Shown piece by piece: positions 4,208 through 19,773 of a stretch of DNA of 23,657 nucleotides; within the stretch, counting starts at the first letter, position 1; every line of letters begins with the position of its first letter. Below the pieces are notes generated by a model that saw only the letters and a list, made by a program, of their open reading frames with translations, made no database searches and was not told the DNA's origin. Made by a program: the position numbers and the translations under genes. Source of the DNA: a virus; the IMG/VR virus record IMGVR_UViG_3300031857_001415, positions 1-23,657 of that record; one strand, 5' to 3'.

Positions 4208-6646
4208 GTGGCTAATGAAAGAATTGTAAGTCCTGGAGTGTTTACCAATGAAATGGATCTATCGTTCCTCCCACAAGGAATCGGTAACATTGGTGCGGCT
4301 CTCGTTGGACCAACGCTTAAAGGACCGGCTTTTGTGCCTACATTGGTGAATAGTTTTAGTGATTTTATCACTCATTTCGGTAATACATATGAACAATCAT
4401 ACTTACCATACACAGCAAAAAACTATCTTAATAATGCAGGTAGTGCAACAATAGTTCGTGTTCTTGGATCCGGTGGTTACTCTCTTAAGCATCCGGTTGC
4501 AATAGTTGCTACTGGTTCTTGGGGTAAATCACTTATTTCGTTTTTACATCCAACATTTGTTGTAACAAATTCAGATTCAACATCTTTATTTGAATCAACA
4601 ACCGTATCTGCAAACAATAGTGGTAGCTTTGTTATCACTTTGTCAGGATCATTCACAACAGACCAATCTGCATTTACAAATGCTATCGATCAGAATGGAA
4701 CTGCATTTAGTTCATCAATAAATCCAGAATCTACTGCATATATTGGCGATTTGTATGGCTACAATCCTTATGGAACAAACGCCGTTTACAACTATGTAAA
4801 CTTTAAGAAACAGGCATCCGCTTCACTTGCTTTAGATGCTGCAACAAAAATTATGATTGAAACTGGCTCTGCTGGTTCTCCTTGGGATTTTACAACCGAT
4901 TATTTGGCTGCATCTACTCCTTGGATAACATCACAAAAAATTGGTGATAGAACAACAGATTTGTTTAAGTTCCATACTATTTCTCATGGTATTCATTCTA
5001 ACTATGAAGTAAAAGTTGGTATTGCAAACATTCGTCCTGCTGGAACAATCGCTGGTTCAGAATATGGTGATTTTGATGTTGTTGTTAGATTTGTTGATCA
5101 ATCTAAACTTCCACAAACACCATTCACATCCGAAGATGAAGATTTGCGTCCAAACGTAATTGAATCATTTAAGTGTAACCTTGATCCAAATTCACCAAAA
5201 TTTATTTCAAGAGTTATTGGTGATAGATTCATAACAATTACCGATGAAGGTAAAGTTGTTGTTAATGGTGACTATTCTAACAAATCAAAATATGTTCGAG
5301 TTGAAACAACAGAAGCCGTTACTAACGGTGGTGTATCTCCTAATCTCGTTCCTTTTGGATTCCGTGCTTTACATTCACCAATTCCAAAACAATTTACTCA
5401 ACCAGCTGCTGCTACATATGTTGCAGACCAAACAGCCGGTGGTGCATATAACAGACGAGTATATTGGGGATTCAGCTATGACTTTACAAATACTGATAAC
5501 TTTAATTACTTGCGTCCACTTCCTATAACAGATAATGTTACAACTGGAAGTAATGTAGATTTCTATTTGGGTGATTATCAACAAAATCCTGGTGCAAGTT
5601 TCCCATCAAGTGCTGTTGCTTACAGTTCATCCATTGATTTGACTACAAATACTGCACTTGATTCTCGTAAATTTATTGTGCCACTTCAAGGTGGATTTGA
5701 TGGTCATAAACCAAATCTTCAAAAGAAATTGGGAACATACATTGAAGCTGGAAATACACAAGGATTCGATATATCAAACTCTAATGCAGATGGATATACT
5801 TCTTACAAGAAGGCAGTTGATACCATTTCAAATGCAGATGAATTTGATATTAACATGATAGTAACACCCGGTGTTCTTCACTCATTACATTCTGCTATAA
5901 CAAACTATACAAAAGATATGTGTGAGGATCGTGGTGATGCTTTCTATGTAATGGATTCTGTTGGTATAAATGATAATATCTCAACTGCTGTTGCAACAAC
6001 AGAAGGATTTGACAGTAACTATGCGGCTACTTATTATCCTTGGGTTAAGATTCTTGATTTCGATAGAAACAAACCAATTTGGGTTCCCCCATCTGTTGTT
6101 CTTCCTGGCGTAATTGCATTCAATGACCGTGTTGCTGCAGAATGGTTTGCTCCTGCTGGTTTGAATCGTGGTGGTTTGACAGAGGTAGTTGAAGTTAAAT
6201 CTCGTTTGACTCATGCTGAACGTGATACACTTTATGAGGCACGAATCAATCCTATCGCAGTGTTCCCATCAACAGGCGTTTGTGTCTGGGGTCAAAAAAC
6301 ATTGCAAGGTCGTCCATCTGCTCTTGACCGTATCAATGTTCGCCGTCTCTTGATTGCTGCTAAGAAGTTTATTGCTTCTTCCACAAGATACCTTGTGTTT
6401 GAACAAAACACTTCACAGACACGCTCAAGATTCTTGAACATTGTAACACCATACTTGGAATCAATTCAACAACGTCAAGGTTTGTATGCTTTCCGTGTTA
6501 TCATGGATGAAAGTAATAACACACCTGATATTATTGACCGCAACATCTTATACGGCCAGTTGTTCTTACAACCAGCCAAAACAGCTGAATTTGTCATACT
6601 TGACTTTAACATTCAGTCTACTGGTGCTGCTTTCCCTGGTGCTTAA
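4208..6646 (+). CDS. Tail sheath protein, T4 gp18-like
   Basis: An 812-residue contractile sheath subunit. The N terminus has the sheath signature IVSPGVFTNEMD, then a segment about ALVGPTLKGPAFVPTLV, as in gp18. The C-terminal third carries the conserved core: RINPIAVFPSTGVCVWGQKT near residue 680, then RPSALDRINVRRL, and the last strands YGQLFLQPAKTAEFVILDFN, which form the handshake between neighbouring subunits in known sheaths. T4 gp18 is 659 residues; the extra 150 or so probably enlarge the surface-exposed middle domains. The start is a GTG with GGAG at 4197-4200, and an in-frame TAA immediately before it (4205-4207) rules out an earlier start. A strong terminator follows the stop. Confidence 0.95.
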   Translation: MANERIVSPGVFTNEMDLSFLPQGIGNIGAALVGPTLKGPAFVPTLVNSFSDFITHFGNTYEQSYLPYTAKNYLNNAGSATIVRVLGSGGYSLKHPVAIVATGSWGKSLISFLHPTFVVTNSDSTSLFESTTVSANNSGSFVITLSGSFTTDQSAFTNAIDQNGTAFSSSINPESTAYIGDLYGYNPYGTNAVYNYVNFKKQASASLALDAATKIMIETGSAGSPWDFTTDYLAASTPWITSQKIGDRTTDLFKFHTISHGIHSNYEVKVGIANIRPAGTIAGSEYGDFDVVVRFVDQSKLPQTPFTSEDEDLRPNVIESFKCNLDPNSPKFISRVIGDRFITITDEGKVVVNGDYSNKSKYVRVETTEAVTNGGVSPNLVPFGFRALHSPIPKQFTQPAAATYVADQTAGGAYNRRVYWGFSYDFTNTDNFNYLRPLPITDNVTTGSNVDFYLGDYQQNPGASFPSSAVAYSSSIDLTTNTALDSRKFIVPLQGGFDGHKPNLQKKLGTYIEAGNTQGFDISNSNADGYTSYKKAVDTISNADEFDINMIVTPGVLHSLHSAITNYTKDMCEDRGDAFYVMDSVGINDNISTAVATTEGFDSNYAATYYPWVKILDFDRNKPIWVPPSVVLPGVIAFNDRVAAEWFAPAGLNRGGLTEVVEVKSRLTHAERDTLYEARINPIAVFPSTGVCVWGQKTLQGRPSALDRINVRRLLIAAKKFIASSTRYLVFEQNTSQTRSRFLNIVTPYLESIQQRQGLYAFRVIMDESNNTPDIIDRNILYGQLFLQPAKTAEFVILDFNIQSTGAAFPGA

Positions 6647-6737: not shown

Positions 6738-7226
6738 ATGGCTGAATTACTCGATCCCAATGAAATTTTTTTCACACCGTTTGAGCCAAAATTACAGAAT
6801 CGCTTTATCATGTATATTGAAGGCGTTCCTGCATATTTGGTAAAAGGTGCTGGTAGACCAAACATCAGTTTCAATCCAATCACACTTGACCACATCAACG
6901 TCAAACGTAAAGTAAAGGGAAAGGGTGAATGGCAAGATATTACAATCAAATTGTATGATCCTATCGTGCCTTCCGCTGCTCAGGCAACAATGGAATGGGT
7001 GCGTCTTTCACACGAATCTGTAACAGGTCGTGACGGTTATTCTGACTTCTATAAGAAAGACATAACACTTCATGTTCTCGGTCCTGTTGGTGATAAAGTT
7101 GAAGAATGGACACTTAAAGGTGCTTTCATTACTGCAACAACATTCGGTGAAATGGATTGGGCAAACGATGCTTTTGTTGAGATTTCTCTCACACTTGCAT
7201 ATGATTATGCTATCCTCCAATACTAA
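6738..7226 (+). CDS. Tail tube protein, T4 gp19-like
   Basis: A 162-residue tube subunit, the same size class as T4 gp19 (163 residues). Stacked hexamers of this protein make the inner tail channel. Visible family features are the opening PFEPKLQNRFIMYIEGVPAY (residues 14-33), the segment about GAGRPNISFNPITLDHINVK (37-56), the strand pair QDITIKLYDPI, and the C-terminal strands WTLKGAFITATTFGEMDWAN and FVEISLTLAYDYAILQY. The ATG is supported by GGAG at 6728-6731. It is flanked by hairpins on both sides with its own octamer upstream, so it is probably transcribed as a one-gene unit, which suits a protein needed in high copy number. Confidence 0.95.
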   Translation: MAELLDPNEIFFTPFEPKLQNRFIMYIEGVPAYLVKGAGRPNISFNPITLDHINVKRKVKGKGEWQDITIKLYDPIVPSAAQATMEWVRLSHESVTGRDGYSDFYKKDITLHVLGPVGDKVEEWTLKGAFITATTFGEMDWANDAFVEISLTLAYDYAILQY

Positions 7227-7350: not shown

Positions 7351-8217
7351 ATGACAAAAATTCCAACCGGCTATAATATAGCCAATGAAGAAGCCGTTTC
7401 AGATGCCGATATTAAGGCACAACTTTTAGCTGAACACAAGCAAACTAATGTTAAAAAATCAAATTTTCCAACGGAAATTATTCCTTTGCCTTCAAAAGGT
7501 CTCTTGTATCCAGAAGGACATCCCCTTGCCGAAGGTGTTATTGAAATGAAATATATGACTGCTCGTGAAGAAGATATATTAACTTCACAAAACCTTATTA
7601 AACAAGGTGTAGTATTAGACAAATTGTTTGAGTCTTTGATTGTTACCCCTATCAATTACAACGACTTGTATGTTGGTGACAAAAATGCAATCATGGTTGC
7701 TGCTAGAATTTTGGGATATGGAAAAGATTATACAGTTCAAATTGATGATCCTTTTTCACCCGGCAATAAACAAACTGTTACAATAGATTTAACTCAAATT
7801 GAGCACAAGGAGGTCGATTATTCGCCATTTGAGAACAGAGCAACCGAATTTGATTTTGAACTTCCACTATCTAAAAGAAATATAACGTTTAGACTTATGA
7901 CACATGGTTTGGAAAGACAGATTCAATCAGAGATAAAATCAATGAATAAATCAGTTATTAAGTCTGGAATTGATAGGGATTTAACAACAAGACTCAAACA
8001 TATTATTACATCGGTTGATGGTGAAAATGGTAGAGTTGCTATAAATAATTTTGTTGATAATGAATTGTTTGCAGCGGATTCGAGAGCATTAAGGTCTTAT
8101 ATCAAAGAAATCTCACCTGATTTGGATCTATCATTCACCTTTATTTCAGATATTACTGGTGAGGTTAAGGAGATAGATATACCCATAGAGGTATCATTTT
8201 TTTGGCCTGGCACCTGA
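7351..8217 (+). CDS. Baseplate / tail assembly chaperone, T4 gp26-type
   Basis: A 288-residue protein. Residues about 43-125 match the T4-like baseplate-assembly family typified by gp26: IIPLPSKGLLYPEG, EGVIEMKYMTAREEDILTSQ, then the DKLFESLI and MVAARILGYGKDY segments. The C-terminal half is mixed alpha/beta and the protein ends FFWPGT. The start is the ATG at 7351 with ATAGGA at 7337-7342. The gene sits directly before the tape-measure gene and ends on a run of seven T, after which a second frame continues for 79 codons without a start of its own. This is the arrangement of the frameshifted tail-assembly chaperone pairs (lambda G/GT, P2 E/E') that coat the tape measure during tail assembly. 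The unshifted product described here would be the major form. Confidence 0.8.
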   Translation: MTKIPTGYNIANEEAVSDADIKAQLLAEHKQTNVKKSNFPTEIIPLPSKGLLYPEGHPLAEGVIEMKYMTAREEDILTSQNLIKQGVVLDKLFESLIVTPINYNDLYVGDKNAIMVAARILGYGKDYTVQIDDPFSPGNKQTVTIDLTQIEHKEVDYSPFENRATEFDFELPLSKRNITFRLMTHGLERQIQSEIKSMNKSVIKSGIDRDLTTRLKHIITSVDGENGRVAINNFVDNELFAADSRALRSYIKEISPDLDLSFTFISDITGEVKEIDIPIEVSFFWPGT

Positions 8218-8440
8218 TTATAGATTAGGTTTACATGAAGAAATCTTTTCTTTATGTTATTATGGCAAAGGTGGTTTTACTTGGGATGAAGTATACGGTC
8301 TTCCAGTTCATTTGAGACGATTCTATATCAATCAAGTTAAAAAGGCAATGGAAGAAAAGAATAAGGCAGAACACGCTGAAGTATCTAAACATAAAGTGAG
8401 TATGCCTACATTTTCAAAACCATCAACACCTAGACGATAA
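8189..8440 (+). CDS. Frameshift extension of the tail assembly chaperone (T-domain analogue)
   Basis: This frame is +1 relative to the upstream gene. It is open from 8189, overlaps the last 29 bases of that gene and ends with TAA at 8438-8440. From the T run onward it encodes 79 residues with protein-like character: GLHEEIFSLCYYGKGGFTWD, then EVYGLPVHLRRFYINQVKKA, then a charged helix and a Pro/Ser-rich end. It has no ATG or GTG before the well-formed part and no ribosome binding site, so it is best read as a fusion to the chaperone. A +1 slip at TTTTTTTGG would give about 362 residues and a -2 slip about 363. A -1 slip meets a TAG at 8226. The alternative is a one-base error or mutation in the T run splitting a single gene. 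Confidence 0.72.
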   Translation, partial: RYHFFGLAPDYRLGLHEEIFSLCYYGKGGFTWDEVYGLPVHLRRFYINQVKKAMEEKNKAEHAEVSKHKVSMPTFSKPSTPRR

Positions 8441-8444
8441 TTTT

Positions 8445-8486
8445 GCGGTTTACATATTTATAGGATATGTAGACCGTTTTTATTTT
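8445..8486 (+). terminator. Rho-independent terminator before the tape-measure gene
   Basis: Arms 8445-8457 (GCGGTTTACATAT) and 8465-8477 (ATATGTAGACCGT) pair over 13 bp with two G-U pairs and a 7-nt loop. They are followed by TTTTATTTT. The hairpin begins 5 nt after the stop of the frameshift extension, which supports that stop being the true end of a translated gene. The ATATTTAT octamer lies inside this structure. Confidence 0.85.
8454..8461 (+). promoter_or_regulatory. Candidate late promoter octamer ATATTTAT (inside terminator hairpin)
   Basis: Fifth copy of the octamer, covering the top of the left arm and the loop of the terminator, 45 nt before the GTG of the tape-measure gene. If it is a promoter, a transcript starting just downstream would lack the left arm and so would not be stopped by the hairpin. 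Confidence 0.5.
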
Positions 8487-8506: not shown

Positions 8507-11500
8507 GTGGCATCAAAAGAAGACGTAAAACTTGCCTCTGAACTAAAAGATTTAACTGAAACACGAATTGAATTAGAAAAACAAATCGTTGAACAGAAAA
8601 TCAAAATGGGATCGGAGGATAAAAAATCAATAGAAAATATCAAGAAACTTGTATCATTAGAAGCACTTCGTATGGATTCCATAGAGAAGGAAGAAGAAGT
8701 GCGCAAAAAAATTCAAGACATAGAAAAGGATTCTGAAAAACGATTAAAAGAATTTGAAAAATATGAAAAAGAATCTGTAAAAAATATAAAAGAACAAAAC
8801 AAGGGTGAAGACGAATTAAACAAAAAGGCAAAAAAGAAAAAAGAAAATGCAGAACAGGTAAAAAGATATTCAGAGGATCAAAGAAATATAACAGTAGAAC
8901 TAAACTCTCACATGGGTGTGTTGAATGATAAAGCAAAAGGTCATGCTGCTGCTTTATTAAAAACAGCAGGTGTAAATGATACAATAGCAGAATCATATAC
9001 AACAATATCAACACAAATTGCTAAGGGTTATGCCGGTAGTCAAAACTTTATGTCAGTCGTGGATCAGACGCGGGACATAACCAGTGATGTCTCTAAATTA
9101 TATGCCGAATCTATTGATCAAACTGGTCAAATAGAAAAAGGTTCTGCAAAAATAGTAGATACCGATAAAGCACGTCAAGACATTGCATTAAAACGTTTTC
9201 AAATTGAAAGTGGACAATTAGGATTAAGTGCATCAGAACAAGCAATGACAATGAAAATTCTTCGTCAAGATGAAGAAAGACTGAATGCAATAGACGAACA
9301 AAACAAATACATAGAGAAACAAAACTCAAAAATGGGTATGATAAATGATATAGGAAGTAAGTTGGGAACTTCTATGTCATCTTGGGTTACTAAACTTCCT
9401 GGTGGTGAACAAATTTCAAAAATTCTTGGAATTGATAAAACCGCCGATAAAATGAACAAATCATTCACATCTGCAATTCAAAACGGTCTTCAAGGTAATT
9501 TCAAAACTGCATTTGCAGATGGTATGAAAGGTCTTGGTAGTATGGTTGCAATGGCACCAAAACTTGTTGCTGGATTGGGATTGGGTGCATTAGCTGGTGG
9601 TTTTGGTTTGTTGGCAAAAGGAGCAAAGGGGATATTCAATGTATTGATGGAAGTTGATGGTGCTATTGCTCAAATGGGTAAAGACTTCTCAATGAGTAAA
9701 AAAGAAGCTGGTCAGTTGTATCAACAAACTGTTAAAATGTCTCAGGAATTGAAAATAACCGGAATCAATTCAAAAGAGATTGCAGAGGGTATTCAAGTTG
9801 CAAGTGATGCGTTTAACGGTATAGATGTTGCTTCACAAATAATGTCGGGCAATAAAGAATTAGAAGGTTTCGTTAAACAGGCAGCTGTTTTGACAAAACA
9901 ATTTGGGTTATCTGGTGCGGAAGTTGCTAGAATAAAAGATATAGCAACTATTACCGGAACATCAATGGATAAACTTGTAAAAGAATCCGTTGATATGGGT
10001 AAAGGGGTTATGAATGCTAAAGAGAGTATGAAAGTCCTTGCCGGTATTCCAAAAGAAGTTGCTGTTGGATTTAAGGGTGCATCAAAAGAACTTGTTGCTG
10101 CTGCTCAAAAGGCAAAATTATTAGGAACAGATCTTAAGAAGATAAAAGATATTGGTAGGGGAATGTTGGATTTGGAATCATCTCTGACTGCAGAATTTGA
10201 AGCACAGGCAATAACCGGTAAGAATATGAATCTTGATGCTGCAAGAAGATTTGCAATGGAGGGTAATATATTCGGATTACAGGAAGAATTGCTAAATAAA
10301 GCTGGATCACTTGAAGATTTCACCAATATGAATGTTATTCAACAAGAGGCATTTGCTAAGGCGATGGGTATGTCTGTTGAAGAAATGACAGATATGCTTA
10401 CTAATGCAGAAAAACTTTCAAAGGCAGGTATTGATTCAGATTATGCAGAAAAATTGAGTAATATGCAATCTGCCGCCGAACTTGAAAAAGAAATGGCAAA
10501 TGCAAAGAATCAAGAACAAAAAGATTACATTGCTCAACTTGCTGCAGAAAAACGTTCTGCTAGTTTGAAAGAATCTATGGCAGATGCTGTTGAAAAATTA
10601 AAACAAAAATTTGCTCCTGTAATAGATGCAATAGTTCAGATGGTTAGTGGTTTAGAACAAGGAAATGACGGTGTATCTGTATTTCAAAAGATGTTAGATG
10701 GTATAGATATGAATGCCATTGCGGCTGGTATAAAAGAAGCTTTACCAAAAGTAATGGAAGCTGTTCAAGGTTTGATTAAAAATCTTCCAAAGATTATAGA
10801 AATGGTAGGAGGGTTGATAAGTAAATTCAGCGGAATTGCCGGAGCTGCTGGTGGATTCCTTGATATATTGGGACCTAGCACCGCCGGTTTGGGTGTAATG
10901 GCATTAAAAGTTGCCGGTCCTGGTGGTATAGCCGCTGGTTTCAAAGTTGCAAGTAAAGGTGCAATGGGATTATTCGATATGATAAAAGGTCCACTTGGTG
11001 ATAGTGTGGGCAAACTTGCAGGAGGGGTATCCGGTAAATTAGGTGATGCTTTTGGAAAAGTTACAGAAAAGGCAGGTGCCCTTGGATCCAAAATGAAAGA
11101 TATGGCCGCAAGTAAAGCGGGTGATATGTCAGGCGCCGGTGGTGGTAAGAAGGCAAAAATGCCAAAGGCAAAAGCCGGAAAAGGTGGCGGTGGAATGATG
11201 GATGGTATAGCGGATTTTGTCAATAAAGTGGATATGAAAAAAATGTTAATGGGTGCTGCTGCATTACTTGTTCTCGCGGCTGCTTTATTTGTAACTGCTA
11301 AGGCATTACAAGAATTTGCTAAAGTTGAATGGAGTGCAATGGCAAAAGGAGCCGTTGCTCTTCTTGGTCTTGCTGGTATTGCCATGTTATTAGGAACTGC
11401 ATCCGTTCCTATGTTAATTGGAGCCGGTGCTATTTTAGTTCTCGGTGCTGCATTGATGGTTGCCGCTGTTGGTTTGAAAATAATGGGTGAAATTAAATGG

Positions 11501-12673
11501 GATAACTTCAAAGGAATTGCTGGTGCATTAGTTGAACTTGCTGGTGGATTTGTTGTATTAGGGGCTGCCGCTCCTTTCATAATAATCGGTTCTATGGCTA
11601 TGATTGCAATGGGTGCAGCTGCTGCTGTTTTTGGTGGTGGGTTATACCTTATTGCAAAATCACTTGCTGAATTTCAGAAGATTGGTGACTTCGGAAAGGT
11701 TGGGGACAACTTGGCTGCCGGTATGGAGGCATTAGGTTCCGTTTCAGAAAAGGTTGATATAGGAAAACTTGAAGATTCATTTGAGGAATTAAACGATGCA
11801 CTTGAAGAATTAGATTTTGAAAAACTAGCAGCTTTTGGTCAATTAGGAAACTCTGCTCTAAAAGGTGCCGGAGATAATCTCGTTGGTGGTATAAATTCTT
11901 TGATGGGTATAAATCAGGGAATAAATTGGAGTGGGCTTGAAGATACATTTGAAGGTTTGGAAGATTCTCTTGACGAATTAGATTTAGAAGGAATACAGGC
12001 ATTTGCTAAATTGGGTGAAGAAGGTATAAAAAAAGCCGGTGAAAATCTTATGGCTGGGTTAAATTCATTTCAAGGAATTGATCCAAAGGCGGCAGTTGCT
12101 GCTATCGCTCCACTGGAAGATGTTTTTAGTGCCCTCGAAGATGCATTTGATGAATTAGATTACGAAGAACTGGATGCATTTGGTAAGGTTGATTTTACTA
12201 AAATGGCCGCAAATACAACTGGTTTATCACAGTTTGCACATGCACTTGGTAATATCGGCAGTATGTCTGGAATTGATAAGTTGGAAGAACAATTTGAAAA
12301 ACTATCAGATGCAATAGACGGTTTAGACATTGATAAGTTAAACGAACTATCAAATATAAAGCCGGATGCAATGGGCAATTTAGGAAAATTACAGGCAGTA
12401 TTTCAACCGTCACAAAAAATAGAATCGCCTGCCGGTGGTGCAGCAGCCGGTGGTGCAGGTGGTGCCGCTGGTGCAGGTGGTGCAGCTGCTGGTGGTGCAG
12501 GTGGAAGTGGTGGTGTTGAAGCGAAATTAGATCAACTAATTGGATTATTCAGTTCTATTGCAAATCAACCTACTGTAATAAAATTTGGTGATAAATTTGT
12601 AGAAGAAATACGAAATACTATAAACATAAAGAAAACATATAACATTGAAGATAATTTCGGTAGAACGGCATAA
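8507..12673 (+). CDS. Tail tape-measure protein
   Basis: A 1388-residue protein that should run through the tail tube and set its length. At about 0.15 nm per residue this predicts a tail near 200 nm. In order: a charged coiled-coil N terminus (residues about 1-130), a long helical region, a hydrophobic Gly/Ala patch near 350-375 and a long helical middle. A set of very hydrophobic segments follows between about 912 and 1055 (such as AAALLVLAAALFVTAKAL). Then come four repeats (1088-1290), a Gly/Ala low-complexity linker (1309-1336) and a C-terminal FGDKFVEEIRNTINIKKTYN. Its place after the chaperone pair fits. The GTG start is the first possible after an in-frame TAG at 8498, with only a weak ribosome binding site. 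T4 gp29 is 590 residues, so this one is much longer. Confidence 0.88.
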   Translation: MASKEDVKLASELKDLTETRIELEKQIVEQKIKMGSEDKKSIENIKKLVSLEALRMDSIEKEEEVRKKIQDIEKDSEKRLKEFEKYEKESVKNIKEQNKGEDELNKKAKKKKENAEQVKRYSEDQRNITVELNSHMGVLNDKAKGHAAALLKTAGVNDTIAESYTTISTQIAKGYAGSQNFMSVVDQTRDITSDVSKLYAESIDQTGQIEKGSAKIVDTDKARQDIALKRFQIESGQLGLSASEQAMTMKILRQDEERLNAIDEQNKYIEKQNSKMGMINDIGSKLGTSMSSWVTKLPGGEQISKILGIDKTADKMNKSFTSAIQNGLQGNFKTAFADGMKGLGSMVAMAPKLVAGLGLGALAGGFGLLAKGAKGIFNVLMEVDGAIAQMGKDFSMSKKEAGQLYQQTVKMSQELKITGINSKEIAEGIQVASDAFNGIDVASQIMSGNKELEGFVKQAAVLTKQFGLSGAEVARIKDIATITGTSMDKLVKESVDMGKGVMNAKESMKVLAGIPKEVAVGFKGASKELVAAAQKAKLLGTDLKKIKDIGRGMLDLESSLTAEFEAQAITGKNMNLDAARRFAMEGNIFGLQEELLNKAGSLEDFTNMNVIQQEAFAKAMGMSVEEMTDMLTNAEKLSKAGIDSDYAEKLSNMQSAAELEKEMANAKNQEQKDYIAQLAAEKRSASLKESMADAVEKLKQKFAPVIDAIVQMVSGLEQGNDGVSVFQKMLDGIDMNAIAAGIKEALPKVMEAVQGLIKNLPKIIEMVGGLISKFSGIAGAAGGFLDILGPSTAGLGVMALKVAGPGGIAAGFKVASKGAMGLFDMIKGPLGDSVGKLAGGVSGKLGDAFGKVTEKAGALGSKMKDMAASKAGDMSGAGGGKKAKMPKAKAGKGGGGMMDGIADFVNKVDMKKMLMGAAALLVLAAALFVTAKALQEFAKVEWSAMAKGAVALLGLAGIAMLLGTASVPMLIGAGAILVLGAALMVAAVGLKIMGEIKWDNFKGIAGALVELAGGFVVLGAAAPFIIIGSMAMIAMGAAAAVFGGGLYLIAKSLAEFQKIGDFGKVGDNLAAGMEALGSVSEKVDIGKLEDSFEELNDALEELDFEKLAAFGQLGNSALKGAGDNLVGGINSLMGINQGINWSGLEDTFEGLEDSLDELDLEGIQAFAKLGEEGIKKAGENLMAGLNSFQGIDPKAAVAAIAPLEDVFSALEDAFDELDYEELDAFGKVDFTKMAANTTGLSQFAHALGNIGSMSGIDKLEEQFEKLSDAIDGLDIDKLNELSNIKPDAMGNLGKLQAVFQPSQKIESPAGGAAAGGAGGAAGAGGAAAGGAGGSGGVEAKLDQLIGLFSSIANQPTVIKFGDKFVEEIRNTINIKKTYNIEDNFGRTA
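11768..12370 (+). repeat. Four acidic repeats in the tape-measure protein
   Basis: Four imperfect units begin at residues 1088, 1144, 1203 and 1259 (spacing 56-59 residues). Each starts with an acidic helix of the type LEDSFEELNDALEELDFEKL, followed in the first three by AFGQLG-like or AFAKLG-like text. The last unit is the most diverged. Tape-measure proteins often carry periodic helical segments. Confidence 0.75.
12431..12516 (+). repeat. Gly/Ala low-complexity stretch in the tape-measure gene
   Basis: GGTGCA/GGTGCC/GCT-type codon repeats encode an almost pure Gly/Ala linker at residues about 1309-1336. It separates the four acidic repeats from the C-terminal segment. Such triplet runs tend to vary in length between relatives. 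Confidence 0.85.
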
Positions 12674-12723: not shown

Positions 12724-15700
12724 ATGTCATTGGTAGACTTAAAATCTGATTTATCAAAATATAGAAGTGAGGTTTCAAAGGAGGGCAAAAGCACTCCAGA
12801 TGCTTCATCTGCTACCAATGATAAAAACTTTGCAACACAACAACCAATTACAGATGGTTTATACAAAGATGTACCTACTATACAAAAACCAAAAGTTGTT
12901 AGTCTTACAAGTCAATTATCCAACACCAAACTTGATGAAATAAAACAACCAAAGAAATCGGATGTTAGTAAAAGATTAGGAACAACCGAACTTGATAACA
13001 TAAAAAAGCCGGTAAAAACATCATTAGAAAGTAAGTTAGATTCTACTAAACTTGATGATATAGTTATACCATCGGATAAAAGAATTGGTTTGGAAGATAG
13101 ATTGGCCTCAACTAAACTTGATGATATAGTTCAACTTCCAATAGAAAGTCTTTTGATAAACTCTGTATCAGAATTTTCTCCAACGGTTTCCGAAAATAGA
13201 ACGGCAATCGCTGGTGGAGTTGGTTTAGATCAAATTGAATCAAAGTTTTCAAATATAAAGCAAACAAGATTTTCTAGTAGATTAACCGAATCTGATACTG
13301 AAATATCAAGAACTACTCTAGGTGAAAACAATAACAATTCAAACGTTGATATAAATAGACAACCACTTTCTTTTGAAAGAGATGGAACTAGTCCTGATAT
13401 AAATGTTAATCAAAACGATGCAACAGATAATATAACAGATCCAAAAACTGTGATAAACAGAATACCACAGAGTTTTAACAGAGAGGATCAGGCGGTTGCT
13501 ATAAATAAAAGTATATTGTCTCCTATTGGCAATATAACAAACCCATTGATAACAATAACAAGACCACCACAGTTTTTCGATAGAACTGAAAATTCAATAG
13601 AAATATCAAAGAACGTAAATGATGCATCTGATAACATAACAATACCAGATATAGAACCTTTGTTACGCCCTTTATCTTTTGATAGACAAGAACAGGTTCC
13701 AAATATAATCACAGAAACTATACAAGAAGGTATAGTTGTAAATCCAAACATAAATGTTTTGAGAGTAGAACAGGGATCTATTCACACAGGCGATGCAAGT
13801 GAATTTAATATAGATGGTTCACCAATTCGTTTCGTTGGAACTTCCGAATTAGAAAGAATGATTGAAACTGACGATAAGGGTCCAATACGATATGAAGGTC
13901 AAACTATACACGATGTTGATAATAGTCAATTAAATCTTTTGGGTATAACACCAACATTTCCTGCAGGAAGACACGAGAATCCATCGGATTCACTATATTC
14001 AGTTTTAGGTTTACAAGAAGTTAATTTCTTCTCAAATCAATTTGCATTAGGATTTAACCAAAGACAACAATTAGGTGATACAAAGTATGTAGGATTTTCA
14101 CAATATGTTTGGACAGGTGGATCTGATAAGGGTCCATTCACGAATTATTTTTCTGATACAAATTCATTTGGATTCCAAATACGAGTTAATGCCGAAGAAA
14201 CTGCTTACCAACCAAATACATCACAATTTGATTTTGCAAAAATAACTGGTGTGAATTATTTTGATGGTAATAATAATAACACTATTGGTGGATTTAGTGT
14301 ATTCACACCACATCAAATAACAGAGTATAAAACAGAATCTTCATTTTTAGGATGGCAGGGTAATAGAGTTGGTGCTCCACAAGTAAATTTCTTTGATATA
14401 GAACTTGGTCATACAAAAAGAGGATTCAATAAATTTGCAGAACTAGGTGAGTCTGATTACATAGAAGGATCTTCTATATTTGATTATGACGGAAATAAAC
14501 AACAGGCACCATCTGTCAATTATTTCGATTTAACAAATGCATCTACAACAATGGGATTCCATAATTTTGCAGCATTTCAAGATTCAAAATACATTTTGGA
14601 TGCTTCAAATTATGCATGGAAAGGTGTTTCTCTAACTGATTCTCCAGAAACTAATTATTTTGATATATTCAAAAATGTTACAACTGCAGGATTCCATAGA
14701 TTTGCACAAAAATTAGAAACAAAATATATTAGAGATGCATCGGAATTTGTTTGGTCAGGAGCCAGAGGAGATGCTCCAACTATAAATTATTTTGATTTGG
14801 TAACAACTCTAAACTCAACAGATGGATTTCATTCATTTGCTGGGTTATATGATACAAAATATATTACAGATTCATCCAGATTTACATGGATTGGCACTCG
14901 TGACGATGCACCATTTGTAAATTACTTGGATATACCAACAAGAAATGTTACTTCTGGATTTGATATATTTGTTCCATTTTTAGAATCAAAGTATAAAAAT
15001 GATTCTTCTTATTATACATGGAATGTAAATAGACAAGATGCTCCCGTTGTAAATTATTTTGATTTAGAGAGTCAATCAACAACAACCGGTTTTCATAAAT
15101 TCTCCGGTATGTTTGATACTAAATACATAAAGGATTCATCTCAATTTGATTTTGATGGTAATAAACAAAATGCACCTGCTGTCAATTATTTTGATTTACT
15201 CGGTAGATTTACAACTGCAGGATTCCATACATTTCCTATCTTCAAAGAATCAAAGTACATCAAAGATTCATCCGAATTTGATTGGGATGGTGCAAGAGTA
15301 AATGCTCCTGCTATAAACTATTTCGATTTGCAGGGAACACACACTACTGCTGGATTCTATTCATTTGCACAAGAATATGATTCAAAGTATGTGAAAGAAT
15401 CTTCGAGGTTTGATTGGGACGGTAATAGGTCATCCGCACCTGCTGTTAATTATTTTGATTTGCCCGGTAAATTTACAACAGAAGGTTTTCATATACTTGC
15501 TCCATTTAAGCAAACTAGATATATTCACGAATCATCTGAATTTGATTGGGATGGTCTTCGTGCAAATTCACCAGAAGTTAATTATTTTGACTTTACAGGA
15601 AAGGTAACAACTGCTGGTTTTCATAGACTTGCTGAAACATATGATTCAAAGTATGTTGAAGAATCATCTATCTTCGATTGGGATGGTAGTCGTGATGAAT

Positions 15701-18700
15701 CTCCGCAAGTAAATTACTTTGATTTGCGTAGTAAATTTACAACAATAGGTTTCCATAGACTTGCCGAGTTATATGATAGTAAGTATGTTAAGGATTCATC
15801 GGAATTTACATTTGCTGGTAAGTTTCCAAAAGCAGGAACAGATTATTTTGATAAAGAAAAATTAAATCAAACCGGATTTACTCTGAATATACAACCAAAG
15901 GGATCAAGTAAACCTGCTGGAACAGAGTATTTCCATGAGAGTTCATTCTATACATTCAAAGGTGGAAGACCTGGAGAACCAGTCGAATCGGTAATTGATT
16001 TCTTTCAAAATACAAATCAGACCGGTTTCACGATGGACATTAAACGAAACGAAGGTTTGCCCGAAACAGAATATGCTACCGAGTCTTCTATATTTGTTTT
16101 TCAAGGTGGTAGACCTGGCTTACAAAGTTTCTTTCCTGACGATAACCAAACTGGTTTCACTTTGGATATTATGGCAAAGGGTAGTAGTAGACCTGGAACA
16201 GAGTATGATACCAATTCTTCTGATTATGGATTCAAAGCCGATAGAAGACCACCACTACTAAATTATTTTCCAGATGATAACCAAACTGGTTTCACTTTGG
16301 ATATTATGCCAAAGGGGGCTGGTAATCCTGAAACAGAATATGTAAATGAATCTTCAAGATTCGGTTTTATAGGTTTAAGACCAAACGGTGTTAATTATTT
16401 TCCTGATGATAACCAAACTGGTTTTACAATAGATATAATGCGTAAAGGTAGTGGTAGACCACAAACCGAATACACTGCAGAAACATCTCAATTTGATTGG
16501 AATGGATCAAGATTAAGTGCACCGAGTAATAATTATTTTGGTTTGTATAGAACGCCGATTGGAAAGGAATATATTGATGTTCAACAAAAAAATAACACTA
16601 CACAGGCAGGCAGAGGATTTCAAACATTCTATACAGATAAAACTGTAACTAATTATGCTCCAGGATATTCTATATTATCAACTGAAAGTGGAACTAATAA
16701 AGTTCTTTCTTTGGATAAGCCAGTAACAAATTTCTTTGGGTTTACACCATCACAGAGAGCTGGATTTTTACCACAAATGACATTGAACGATGGAACACTT
16801 TATCCGATAATAAATCCAGAACTTACTTACAATTTAGATCAAAGTGGAAGACTTGCTATTCAAACAAGAAGATCTTCTGCTGGAATCAATACAGTTAATG
16901 GCGAAGAATTTGCTCCATTATCTTTGGGAAAAAGACCTTGGGTTCAACAAGGAACTCTTGCTTCATTAGAAAATCAAGTTCCAAATATCATAACAAAAGC
17001 TGCTGCTGGTTCTTACATAAACAAATATGAAAGAACTATGAAAGATACACCAGATGGTAGTTACCTTGCATCTTATGGTATACGCCAAGGACAGATTGCA
17101 AAACAATACCAAGAATACAGAGGAACACCTTTACAATTTAATCCAGAATTAGATTCTACTCCATTTATACTAAGGGGTATTCAAATAAAAGGTAAAACTG
17201 TAAATGAAAGATGGGGACAAAATTCTGATGCAGGAAATGTTGTTTTTGGCAGAGGTGGTGGATATTCAGATCAATTTGCTGCAATTAACATTGCAGATAG
17301 AGAAAGAATAGAAAAATGGTTAGAAACACCAAAAGGAATAGCTTGGACATTGTTACAAGAAGAATTGTATAAAAATAATCCATTGGTTGATAGCATAACC
17401 GCAATAGAATCTGATTCAAATTCTGCTCAAATTTCTAAAACTCGAATATACAATAAGACATCCTTATTGAACGCAATAGAGGACAATTTGCTTAGAGGAA
17501 GAACTTTGAGAATACGCCACGGCGAAGATGGAGAAAATCCAGAAAATTCTGATAGGTACGAATCAGTAGTTTTAAGAATGAATCCAAGTAATGACGATAA
17601 ACAGAATGTTATGAATTTTCCCAGAACAGTTGCTGGAAACGCATCAACTTTATATTCGGATTCAATTCGATCAGCACAAAATACAAAAAACATATATTCT
17701 TTCTACAAATACAATAGATTGATAGCATTGATGTCTGAATTATTACCGTCATCATTTGCACCGTTAAATTCTAAAACTGCATCATCAATTCGTAATGCAG
17801 CCGGTAGCTCTACACTTAAAATATCGCGCTTATCCGGATTGGGTGGACCAAATTCCGGAACTGATCCATCTGGAGTTACTGAAATAAGAAGGGCATCACA
17901 TCCATTTATGAAGGTATACAATACATCTGGTGTTTTACCCGAAACATATCCATCAACTGCAAAAAGAGATACTTGGTTTGGACAAAAAACAAAAGTTGGT
18001 GCAGATGGACCAACCGAAGATGGAACGGATTACACATATTCCGGAAGAATGAAACAACAAAAATCTTTAGCAGACGGCCAAACATTTGATGGTTTGATAA
18101 CTGCACTTTCTTATTTATTGAGTGGATCAAAATTTGAAAATAATACACAAGAATATCCGAAAGAAGGCAACGGAAATCCTGATAACTCTGCATATATTCA
18201 ACCAAATGTTTACAAGATAATAAGTGCTAGGGATCCATTTAATCCAAAATATCCATCGTATGATGATAGATTGCGAGCAAATGCAGTATTTGATTCTGAT
18301 AACATACCAAATTCAACACCAAATGGAACAGAGCCAATATATCTAAAACCCCCATCTGGCGAAGATCAACAAACTGCACCTATTAAACAATATAGTGCCG
18401 TTTCTTACAATAAACTAAAAAAAATTCAACGCGGTGATGCTAATAGATTGAGAGATTACAATGACTTCCGTGCAGATATTGAAGGTGAAACATATAAAAA
18501 GTTTTCAACTGATCCCGCGATTGCTGACTATAAAAAGAATAATCTTGATAATAGATTCGGATTTGGTAAACAAGGAAAACCTGGAACAAAAAGAGACAAT
18601 CCTGCACGAAACAATATAGTGTATACCAAAGAAGGAGCAGTATTAAAACAAGGAACTGATTATGAATTTAGAGGGGATAGGATAAACATAATAGATTTTA

Positions 18701-19773
18701 AGACTTCAAATAAAGTAAACAATTTAAGTGAAGTTGAAGATTTTGCATATGAACGCGGTAAATACAAAAGACCTGGTTTAGAAGAAGGTGAAGACTTAAT
18801 AACATTTTATTTCAGTAGTGTTAATCTTATGCCAACTAAACAGTATCCAGTTGAAACAATAGTTTTTAGGGCATCGTTTGACAGTATAACCGATAATCAT
18901 AAACCAAGTTGGAGTCCTGTTCAATATATGGGTAGAGGGGATCCATCATATGTATTCGGATCATATGAGAGAGATACGAGTTTTGGATTCACAGTTCATA
19001 TAGGATCTCGTGATGAAATGGCAGCAACATGGAGAAAACTAAACGCACTTGCATCATGGACAACTCCAGATTATAGATCTGGCCGTATGCGTGCACCATT
19101 GTGCCGTCTGAACATAGGTCATTTGTTTAGAAAAACTCCTGGATTCATAAATTCACTAACATATACATTTGATAATGCAGGTGGAACTTGGGAAACTGCA
19201 AAATTAAAAGAAGATAGAAATTATGGTGATTCAGAATCAAAACCAGGCGTATTACAGTTGCCCAAAACAATTCAGGTTGCAGTTGGGTTTACAATTATCG
19301 GTAATTATCGTCCAGAAAGAAATGGTGTGATGTATTCACTATATGATGATGCAGGTGATGGATTGGCTCCTGCTATTGCATCAAATGGTGCTCTTGTAAA
19401 TTATTTCAGAATTGATGATGTGACATCTGCTAATAACAAAGATGCTGAAAAATACTTGTTAGAGGATCCACCAGGAAATCTTGAATCATATGATAAAACA
19501 AATACTGATGACGAAACAAAGGCATTAGGAGATGCTGCATTGACACAAATGTATGGAAAAGTGCCATTTACAGAAAAGAAAGATGCAGATGGAAATGTTA
19601 CTTATGAATCAACTGATCCAAAATTTGGATCAATTGATACAAAAGCAGAAGAAGAAAAAGCTGCAGCTGGAGCTGATAAAGCTGCTACCGATCTTCAAAA
19701 AGAGCAGGAAGAAAAAGCGGCAAGAGATAAAATTGCAGAATCTGGTGGTAATCCATCTCCCGGTCCACCATAA
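12724..19773 (+). CDS. Giant repeat-containing virion protein, probable baseplate component
   Basis: A 2349-residue protein, the largest gene in the window. In order: four short repeats (residues 61-139), four PLSFERD-type repeats (210-340), about 19 tandem units of about 44 residues (453-1275), then a non-repetitive region. This last includes IEKWLETPKGIAWTLLQEEL near 1523-1542, a pattern I associate with large phage baseplate-type proteins. A domain at about 2028-2152 has NHKPSWSPVQYMGRGDPSYV, then SFGFTVHIGS and SLTYTFDNAGGTWE; it resembles tail-tube-like or baseplate domains. The tail is charged and Ala-rich. There is no signal peptide or membrane segment. The ATG has AGGA at 12710-12713. 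Its place between tape measure and gp53-like gene argues for the baseplate; a fibre-like role is the main alternative. The name is inference. Confidence 0.72.
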   Translation: MSLVDLKSDLSKYRSEVSKEGKSTPDASSATNDKNFATQQPITDGLYKDVPTIQKPKVVSLTSQLSNTKLDEIKQPKKSDVSKRLGTTELDNIKKPVKTSLESKLDSTKLDDIVIPSDKRIGLEDRLASTKLDDIVQLPIESLLINSVSEFSPTVSENRTAIAGGVGLDQIESKFSNIKQTRFSSRLTESDTEISRTTLGENNNNSNVDINRQPLSFERDGTSPDINVNQNDATDNITDPKTVINRIPQSFNREDQAVAINKSILSPIGNITNPLITITRPPQFFDRTENSIEISKNVNDASDNITIPDIEPLLRPLSFDRQEQVPNIITETIQEGIVVNPNINVLRVEQGSIHTGDASEFNIDGSPIRFVGTSELERMIETDDKGPIRYEGQTIHDVDNSQLNLLGITPTFPAGRHENPSDSLYSVLGLQEVNFFSNQFALGFNQRQQLGDTKYVGFSQYVWTGGSDKGPFTNYFSDTNSFGFQIRVNAEETAYQPNTSQFDFAKITGVNYFDGNNNNTIGGFSVFTPHQITEYKTESSFLGWQGNRVGAPQVNFFDIELGHTKRGFNKFAELGESDYIEGSSIFDYDGNKQQAPSVNYFDLTNASTTMGFHNFAAFQDSKYILDASNYAWKGVSLTDSPETNYFDIFKNVTTAGFHRFAQKLETKYIRDASEFVWSGARGDAPTINYFDLVTTLNSTDGFHSFAGLYDTKYITDSSRFTWIGTRDDAPFVNYLDIPTRNVTSGFDIFVPFLESKYKNDSSYYTWNVNRQDAPVVNYFDLESQSTTTGFHKFSGMFDTKYIKDSSQFDFDGNKQNAPAVNYFDLLGRFTTAGFHTFPIFKESKYIKDSSEFDWDGARVNAPAINYFDLQGTHTTAGFYSFAQEYDSKYVKESSRFDWDGNRSSAPAVNYFDLPGKFTTEGFHILAPFKQTRYIHESSEFDWDGLRANSPEVNYFDFTGKVTTAGFHRLAETYDSKYVEESSIFDWDGSRDESPQVNYFDLRSKFTTIGFHRLAELYDSKYVKDSSEFTFAGKFPKAGTDYFDKEKLNQTGFTLNIQPKGSSKPAGTEYFHESSFYTFKGGRPGEPVESVIDFFQNTNQTGFTMDIKRNEGLPETEYATESSIFVFQGGRPGLQSFFPDDNQTGFTLDIMAKGSSRPGTEYDTNSSDYGFKADRRPPLLNYFPDDNQTGFTLDIMPKGAGNPETEYVNESSRFGFIGLRPNGVNYFPDDNQTGFTIDIMRKGSGRPQTEYTAETSQFDWNGSRLSAPSNNYFGLYRTPIGKEYIDVQQKNNTTQAGRGFQTFYTDKTVTNYAPGYSILSTESGTNKVLSLDKPVTNFFGFTPSQRAGFLPQMTLNDGTLYPIINPELTYNLDQSGRLAIQTRRSSAGINTVNGEEFAPLSLGKRPWVQQGTLASLENQVPNIITKAAAGSYINKYERTMKDTPDGSYLASYGIRQGQIAKQYQEYRGTPLQFNPELDSTPFILRGIQIKGKTVNERWGQNSDAGNVVFGRGGGYSDQFAAINIADRERIEKWLETPKGIAWTLLQEELYKNNPLVDSITAIESDSNSAQISKTRIYNKTSLLNAIEDNLLRGRTLRIRHGEDGENPENSDRYESVVLRMNPSNDDKQNVMNFPRTVAGNASTLYSDSIRSAQNTKNIYSFYKYNRLIALMSELLPSSFAPLNSKTASSIRNAAGSSTLKISRLSGLGGPNSGTDPSGVTEIRRASHPFMKVYNTSGVLPETYPSTAKRDTWFGQKTKVGADGPTEDGTDYTYSGRMKQQKSLADGQTFDGLITALSYLLSGSKFENNTQEYPKEGNGNPDNSAYIQPNVYKIISARDPFNPKYPSYDDRLRANAVFDSDNIPNSTPNGTEPIYLKPPSGEDQQTAPIKQYSAVSYNKLKKIQRGDANRLRDYNDFRADIEGETYKKFSTDPAIADYKKNNLDNRFGFGKQGKPGTKRDNPARNNIVYTKEGAVLKQGTDYEFRGDRINIIDFKTSNKVNNLSEVEDFAYERGKYKRPGLEEGEDLITFYFSSVNLMPTKQYPVETIVFRASFDSITDNHKPSWSPVQYMGRGDPSYVFGSYERDTSFGFTVHIGSRDEMAATWRKLNALASWTTPDYRSGRMRAPLCRLNIGHLFRKTPGFINSLTYTFDNAGGTWETAKLKEDRNYGDSESKPGVLQLPKTIQVAVGFTIIGNYRPERNGVMYSLYDDAGDGLAPAIASNGALVNYFRIDDVTSANNKDAEKYLLEDPPGNLESYDKTNTDDETKALGDAALTQMYGKVPFTEKKDADGNVTYESTDPKFGSIDTKAEEEKAAAGADKAATDLQKEQEEKAARDKIAESGGNPSPGPP
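12904..13137 (+). repeat. Four short N-terminal repeats in the giant protein
   Basis: Four units of about 20-25 residues. Each has the form of L-x-x-(R/K/Q)-L followed by STKLDDI or a variant (NTKLDEI, TTELDNI, STKLDDI twice) and a Pro. They lie at residues about 61-139, in a region likely to be disordered or to act as repeated short binding motifs. Confidence 0.8.
13351..13740 (+). repeat. Four PLSFERD-type repeats in the giant protein
   Basis: A second repeat family at residues about 210-340. The units contain INRQPLSFERD, INRIPQSFNRE, ITRPPQFFDRT and LLRPLSFDRQ, each followed within about 10 residues by an Ile/Asn-rich strand and NIT-like text. Unit length is roughly 35-40 residues. It differs from both flanking repeat families. 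Confidence 0.75.
14080..16545 (+). repeat. About 19 tandem 44-residue repeats in the giant protein
   Basis: Units start at a Ser/Thr-x-Tyr and read like SKYIKDSSEFDWDG, then a short R-containing loop with AP, then NYFDL, then TTAGFH plus FA. I count 19 starts between residues 453 and 1248. Units 1-3 are irregular and units 4-13 are the classical form. Units 14-18 change the second half to a DDNQTGFTLDI type, and unit 19 returns to FDWNG but breaks off into unique sequence. The strict aromatic and Gly positions suggest a repeated beta structure. Confidence 0.93.

Follow-up and report, generated by a model that had tools for sequence, protein, structure and literature searches.

A T4 gp26-type tail assembly chaperone gene probably yields two proteins by +1 frameshifting on a conserved UUU-Y site

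The locus analyzed here raises the question of whether an open reading frame without its own start codon, which overlaps the end of a tail assembly chaperone (TAC) gene in another frame, is reached by programmed frameshifting and, if so, in which direction. The window under study comprises 23,657 nt of IMG/VR record IMGVR_UViG_3300031857_001415 and represents a genome fragment. Its TAC gene (7351-8217, plus strand) codes for a protein of 288 aa and ends in the zero frame with GTA TCA TTT TTT TGG CCT GGC ACC TGA. The stop codon (TGA, 8215-8217, plus strand) is located 6 codons past the start of the shift site TTT TTT TGG (8197-8205, plus strand), which consists of two tandem UUU-Y tetramers. 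A second frame, +1 (equivalent to -2) relative to the chaperone, is open from 8189 to a stop at 8438-8440 and provides a C-terminal extension of 78 codons plus stop (8204-8440, plus strand). Joining 7351-8203 to 8204-8440 results in a fusion of 362 aa with the junction ...EVSFFGLAPDYR.... The extension frame contains neither ATG, GTG nor TTG before approximately residue 53, and the -1 frame hits a TAG stop at 8226-8228. The chaperone gene is separated from the tape-measure gene by a rho-independent terminator (8445-8477, plus strand, fold z -5.9), and the GTG start of the latter gene (8507) is 66 nt away from the extension stop. Re-reading the window bore out what a preliminary description had recorded of this overlap, namely a T7 run at 8197-8203 within TTTTTTTGG at 8197-8205, an extension lacking a start codon, a -1 frame running into a stop at 8226, and a terminator (stem from 8445) directly past the extension and 66 nt of spacing to the tape-measure gene.

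As in G/GT-type systems, the chaperone gene lies between the genes for the tail tube (6738-7226, plus strand, gp19 type; PF06841, E 1.2e-6), located directly upstream, and the tape measure protein (8507-12673, plus strand, 1388 aa; phrog_4372 tail length tape measure protein, E 2e-8), and the sheath gene is found upstream at 4208. This order of tube, chaperone and tape-measure genes is kept in immuto, SP-15 and LIS04. The window also codes for a 2349-aa protein (12724-19773) in which a unit of about 45 residues (type 'GFHxFAxxYDSKYVKDSSxFDWDGxRxxAPxVNYFDL') is repeated many times.

Both the sequence and the fold of the N-terminal part place ORF 7351-8217 among tail assembly chaperones of the T4 gp26 type. 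It matched PF12322 (T4_baseplate) with an E value of 2.2e-6, above the gathering score, and phrog_150 (baseplate hub) with 7e-10, the latter family being matched by all 56 fused relatives. The chaperone profile (A1) aligned with gp26 of T4 and its relatives at P 2.5e-5, and a wider profile (A9) at P 0.028. Structures of the chaperone part and the extension were predicted separately, and the chaperone model (pLDDT 86) resembled predicted T4-like baseplate hub assembly proteins with E values down to 1e-19. Searching solved structures by sequence yielded no relative for either the chaperone part or the extension.

The extension was modeled as a three-helix unit (pLDDT 83), and a fold search with this model gave no match below E 0.4. 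At the sequence level, the extension profile aligned with the gp51-like protein of phi-ST2 (P 1.4e-6, probability 90% by hhalign) and with the small gp51-like protein of Bellamy (P 2.7e-4), both of which belong to phrog_634 ('baseplate hub assembly catalyst'). The same family was the commonest PHROG among the extensions (9/41, each match being weak), and similarity to T4 gp51 itself was weak (P 0.014-0.023) and confined to the C terminus of gp51. Judging from its similarity to the small phrog_634 proteins, the extension resembles gp51-type proteins, and the fusion would therefore let a single gene provide the products for which T4 uses genes 26 and 51. The Pfam family matched by most extensions (alignment A11) was DUF6760 (PF20546), with weak matches in 15 of 56 (best E 0.0026); it is possibly the same chaperone domain as the extension.

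Because TTTTTTTGG is expected 1.4 times in the shuffled window, the motif is insignificant by itself, and its conservation served as the test. Of the 80 IMG/VR relatives closest to the chaperone ORF, 77 were of sufficient length, and each of them carried an extension in the same relative frame, together with TTTTTTTGGCCT. An enlarged set provided 324 loci with a readable site, which are not phylogenetically independent and include 9 extensions cut by contig ends. In all 315 readable loci of this set, the extension was present at the same place in the +1 frame and open for at least 45 codons. Relatives with six T and a single continuous frame, which the preliminary description had named as evidence against a frameshift, were not found among these 315 loci. 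When used as single scan queries, loci L084 and L085 retrieved 0 and 1 relatives, respectively.

After clustering at 90% protein identity, 178 loci were left. Same-codon conservation, measured as codon identity between related loci sharing the amino acid, amounted to 0.99-1.00 at both codons of the site, at the codon after them and at the CCT, compared to approximately 0.3-0.9 upstream. Where the first site codon encoded Phe (175 cases), TTC was used only 3 times, versus a background of 23%. Over codons 9-47 of the extension, none of 174 loci showed a stop in the extension frame, whereas the other two frames were stopped in 156 and 174 of them. The differences over the same codons were distributed over the three codon positions as 5897/2907/14199, falling mostly on third positions, and a dN/dS of about 0.09 indicated purifying selection. 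In the relatives, the zero-frame stop is located 5, 6 or 8 codons past the start of the shift site. The locus thus shares with G/GT-type genes a conserved overlapping extension in another frame, and its slip site is likewise conserved and close to the zero-frame stop. The conservation of site and extension is far beyond chance, unlike the motif alone, and the conserved frames, site and extension strongly support the initial proposal of a programmed frameshift in the chaperone gene.

The direction of the shift was addressed by comparing the site variants, given here as codons a, b and c. The sequence TTT TTT TGG was present in 233 loci, TTT TTT TAC in 39 and TTT CTT TGG in 38, followed by TTT CTA TGG in 4, CTT TTT TGG in 3 and TTC TTT TGG in 2, and single loci contained TTT CTA TTC, TTT CTT TAC, TTT TTT TTC, TTC TTT TAC or TTC TTT CGT. 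If codon a is TTC, codon b is always TTT, and if codon b is CTA, codon a is always TTT, so one slippery codon is always kept. Each of the 324 loci, and SP-15, LIS04 and RM378 as well, contains either a UUU with a pyrimidine as the next base or a CUU-U. If the P-site tRNA moved forward on codon a or b, from UUU to UUY or from CUU to UUU, it could re-pair in 324/324. The CUU to UUU forward slip is of the release factor 2 type. In the immuto clade, the site reads TTTCTTTGG or TTTCTATGG, without any run above three. The two-frame layout was upheld in the relatives, but the T7 run first taken as the site is not required. A canonical -1 shift on X_XXY_YYZ does not fit either, as the -1 frame of the window stops at 8226 and the extension of the relatives lies in +1.

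The preliminary description had offered either +1 or -2, which lead to the same frame. In a -2 shift as in phage Mu, the tRNA-Phe on the second UUU would move back by two bases and add one extra residue, and the predicted junction peptide of the window would be EIDIPIEVSFFFGLAPDYR instead of the EIDIPIEVSFFGLAPDYR expected after a +1 shift. Re-pairing after such a slip on codon b is possible on the T7 run and in 315 of the 324 loci, but fails in 9 loci representing 5 kinds of variants. The Phe anticodon would land on UCU in TTC TTT TGG, TTC TTT TAC and TTC TTT CGT, and the Leu anticodon on UUC in TTT CTA TGG and TTT CTA TTC, whereas a +1 slip re-pairs well in all of these. Since the tRNA could not re-pair at these variant sites of the relatives if it slipped by -2, and since one mechanism fits every locus, +1 is favored over -2 by this argument from pairing, and we regard the -2 shift as improbable. 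Different lineages might still use different slip modes.

Another reading takes the extension as a gene of its own that is initiated independently, which is how it is annotated in Mel-JY01 and how the small gp51-like cyanophage genes are annotated. Indeed, an ATG is present in the small Bellamy and phi-ST2 ORFs and, in some relatives, in the +1 frame upstream of the shift site. However, 136 of 237 loci lack ATG, GTG and TTG in the first 30 extension codons, and conservation begins exactly at the shift site rather than at a start codon, which makes a separate gene very unlikely. Slippage of the RNA polymerase on the T7 run, by which part of the mRNA would contain six U and a single frame, would suit the homopolymer run present in the window and most relatives. 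Yet the immuto clade with its TTTCTTTGG or TTTCTATGG sites shows no run above three, TTC TTT TGG contains a run of four, and a run longer than T7 occurs in one locus only (T8, L250). The kept feature is a tetramer allowing tRNA re-pairing, not a run length, and because the sites without a T run argue against slippage during transcription, we give this explanation hardly any weight. Finally, homopolymer runs are prone to sequencing or assembly errors, but an error or a broken gene is ruled out by conservation, since the layout is common to hundreds of contigs and to isolated phages and the extension is under purifying selection.

We also searched for elements that may stimulate the shift. RNA structure downstream of the site gave a mean z of -0.88 versus -0.38 in a control stretch, and a consensus fold of 19 relatives contained no pair in this region; a conserved downstream structure was therefore rejected as a stimulator. 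Shine-Dalgarno-like motifs at -20 to -6 were not enriched (5 seen vs. 7 expected), and no obvious limitation arises from the zero-frame A-site codon (UUU, CUU, CUA, UGG or UAC). A purine motif resembling a Shine-Dalgarno sequence, located at -34 to -24 from the shift codon, was present in 114 of 178 loci, compared to a mean of 32 in synonymous shuffles, but in only 29 of 66 loci after clustering at 70%, with a varying register; its distance from the site exceeds that at which Shine-Dalgarno sequences are known to act. The motif reads AAGGAG/GAGGAG, and in the window it is located at 8167-8172. We tentatively consider, while leaning somewhat against it, a wider scenario of widespread bacterial +1 frameshifting on tandem UUU-Y that needs no stop codon, rare codon or downstream structure. 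A purine-rich element about 25-30 nt upstream might assist it, and the direction would have switched between +1 and -1 within one chaperone family.

Among isolated or deposited phages, the +1 extension was recovered in Mel-JY01, four immuto phages, SP-15, LIS04, GXN1, RM378 and LR756508; because isolated phages share the layout, it is not a sequencing error. The deposited records of an immuto phage (L083, 3716-3958), Mel-JY01 (L082, 3845-4081) and LIS04 (L348, 2229-2460) lack the extension, show a short unrelated ORF in its place or treat it as a separate gene. A further copy of the same chaperone with TTTTTTTGG and a +1 extension occurs in a deposited bacterial chromosome of 2.85 Mb (L257, CP070664.1, a MAG of candidate division WOR-3), representing a prophage, a phage tail-like element or a misassembly. 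A homologous extension is present in the -1 frame behind UUUUUUC or UUUUUU in Bellamy, phi-ST2, PAC2, RAS14, LR756511 and L168. In cyanophage Bellamy (L352, 2640-2869) and Vibrio phage phi-ST2 (L353, 2780-2989), small 'catalyst' genes lie in -1 right behind the UUUUUUC ending gp26. Because these genes are open without a stop from UUUUUUC onward, they may represent extensions reached by a -1 frameshift and not independent genes. In a tree of the N-terminal parts, the two T4-type genes group beside Bellamy and phi-ST2, and the +1 label requires three changes on the best tree, of which the starred branches force only one, with long branches making this unsure. The direction of the shift has probably changed at least once.

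Taken together, it is highly probable that this one gene makes two tail assembly chaperones by a +1 slip on UUU-Y. Most ribosomes would read 7351-8217 up to the stop and release the 288-aa short form of gp26 type. A fraction would slip by +1 with the peptidyl-tRNA-Phe on a UUU before a pyrimidine (UUU-Y to UUY), using either the first or the second Phe codon of TTT TTT TGG, and would then read the +1 frame to 8440, resulting in the 362-aa fusion with a gp51-type C domain. If lambda gpG/gpGT and T4 gp26/gp51 are a guide, coating of the tape measure would fall to the short form and recruitment of the tube protein to the long form. We infer the slippage and its direction from the comparison of loci, whereas its efficiency, the ratio of the products and their functions as chaperones would be those expected from lambda.

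The lambda gpG/gpGT proteins (Xu, Hendrix and Duda 2004, reviewed in PMC5009743) are encoded at the same position between tube and tape-measure genes and likewise comprise a short form and a frameshifted long form with a slip near the zero-frame stop; the lambda shift is -1, whereas +1 is favored in the window, whose protein belongs to the T4 gp26 family. Phage Mu has its extension in the same relative frame and with the same role, but its -2 mode cannot re-pair at several variant sites of the family studied here. In T4, gp26 belongs to the same family as the N-terminal part and gp51 corresponds to the phrog_634 proteins matched by the extension, but two genes on opposite strands are used instead of one gene with a frameshift. 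Bellamy and phi-ST2 combine a homologous chaperone with a homologous small C domain, which follows U UUU UUC in -1, and the direction is therefore likely opposite to that of the window. For influenza A PA-X, +1 slippage on UUU_C was demonstrated by mass spectrometry, and a P-site tRNA-Phe slip from UUU to UUY was likewise proposed, with the single Phe tRNA pairing better with UUC than with UUU according to the authors (PMC3498833). However, PA-X stems from a eukaryotic virus and uses a single UUU_C with the rare CGU in the A site, whereas the sites described here are bacterial and mostly tandem UUU-Y. The tail chaperone of the haloarchaeal myovirus HSTV-2 was described as shifting 'very likely +1' (PMC5009743), and this virus with a contractile tail is likened to our case by direction alone.

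The G-T frameshift is regarded as conserved in long-tailed phages 'except T4' (PMC5009743), and some T4-like phages carry a short TAC gene and a long fused TAC gene without a frameshift, according to Vladimirov 2022 as cited in PMC10885494. Within the window, there is one gene with an overlapping extension instead of two TAC genes, and this gene would thus give both forms by itself; a second copy may lie elsewhere in the genome, beyond this fragment. Considering these short and long TAC genes (PMC10885494) and the gp51-like extension, a gp26-type upstream partner, which had at first seemed unusual, is not out of place. The event itself is of a known kind; new are the +1 direction, the T4-type TAC and the tandem UUU-Y site, although Vladimirov 2022 may already list some of these cases.

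The annotation of deposited genomes, including Mel-JY01, immuto and LIS04, in which the extension was missed, mis-called or split, is corrected by these results. The compact natural +1 site with its many variants offers a system for UUU-Y slippage in bacteria. A very common group of T4-like (water) phages appears to use a chaperone frameshift, although T4-type phages are the stated exception. Among the homologues, the same task is solved in three ways, by a +1 shift, a -1 shift or two genes, and because all three occur in one protein family, it becomes possible to trace within it how a recoding event was gained and lost.
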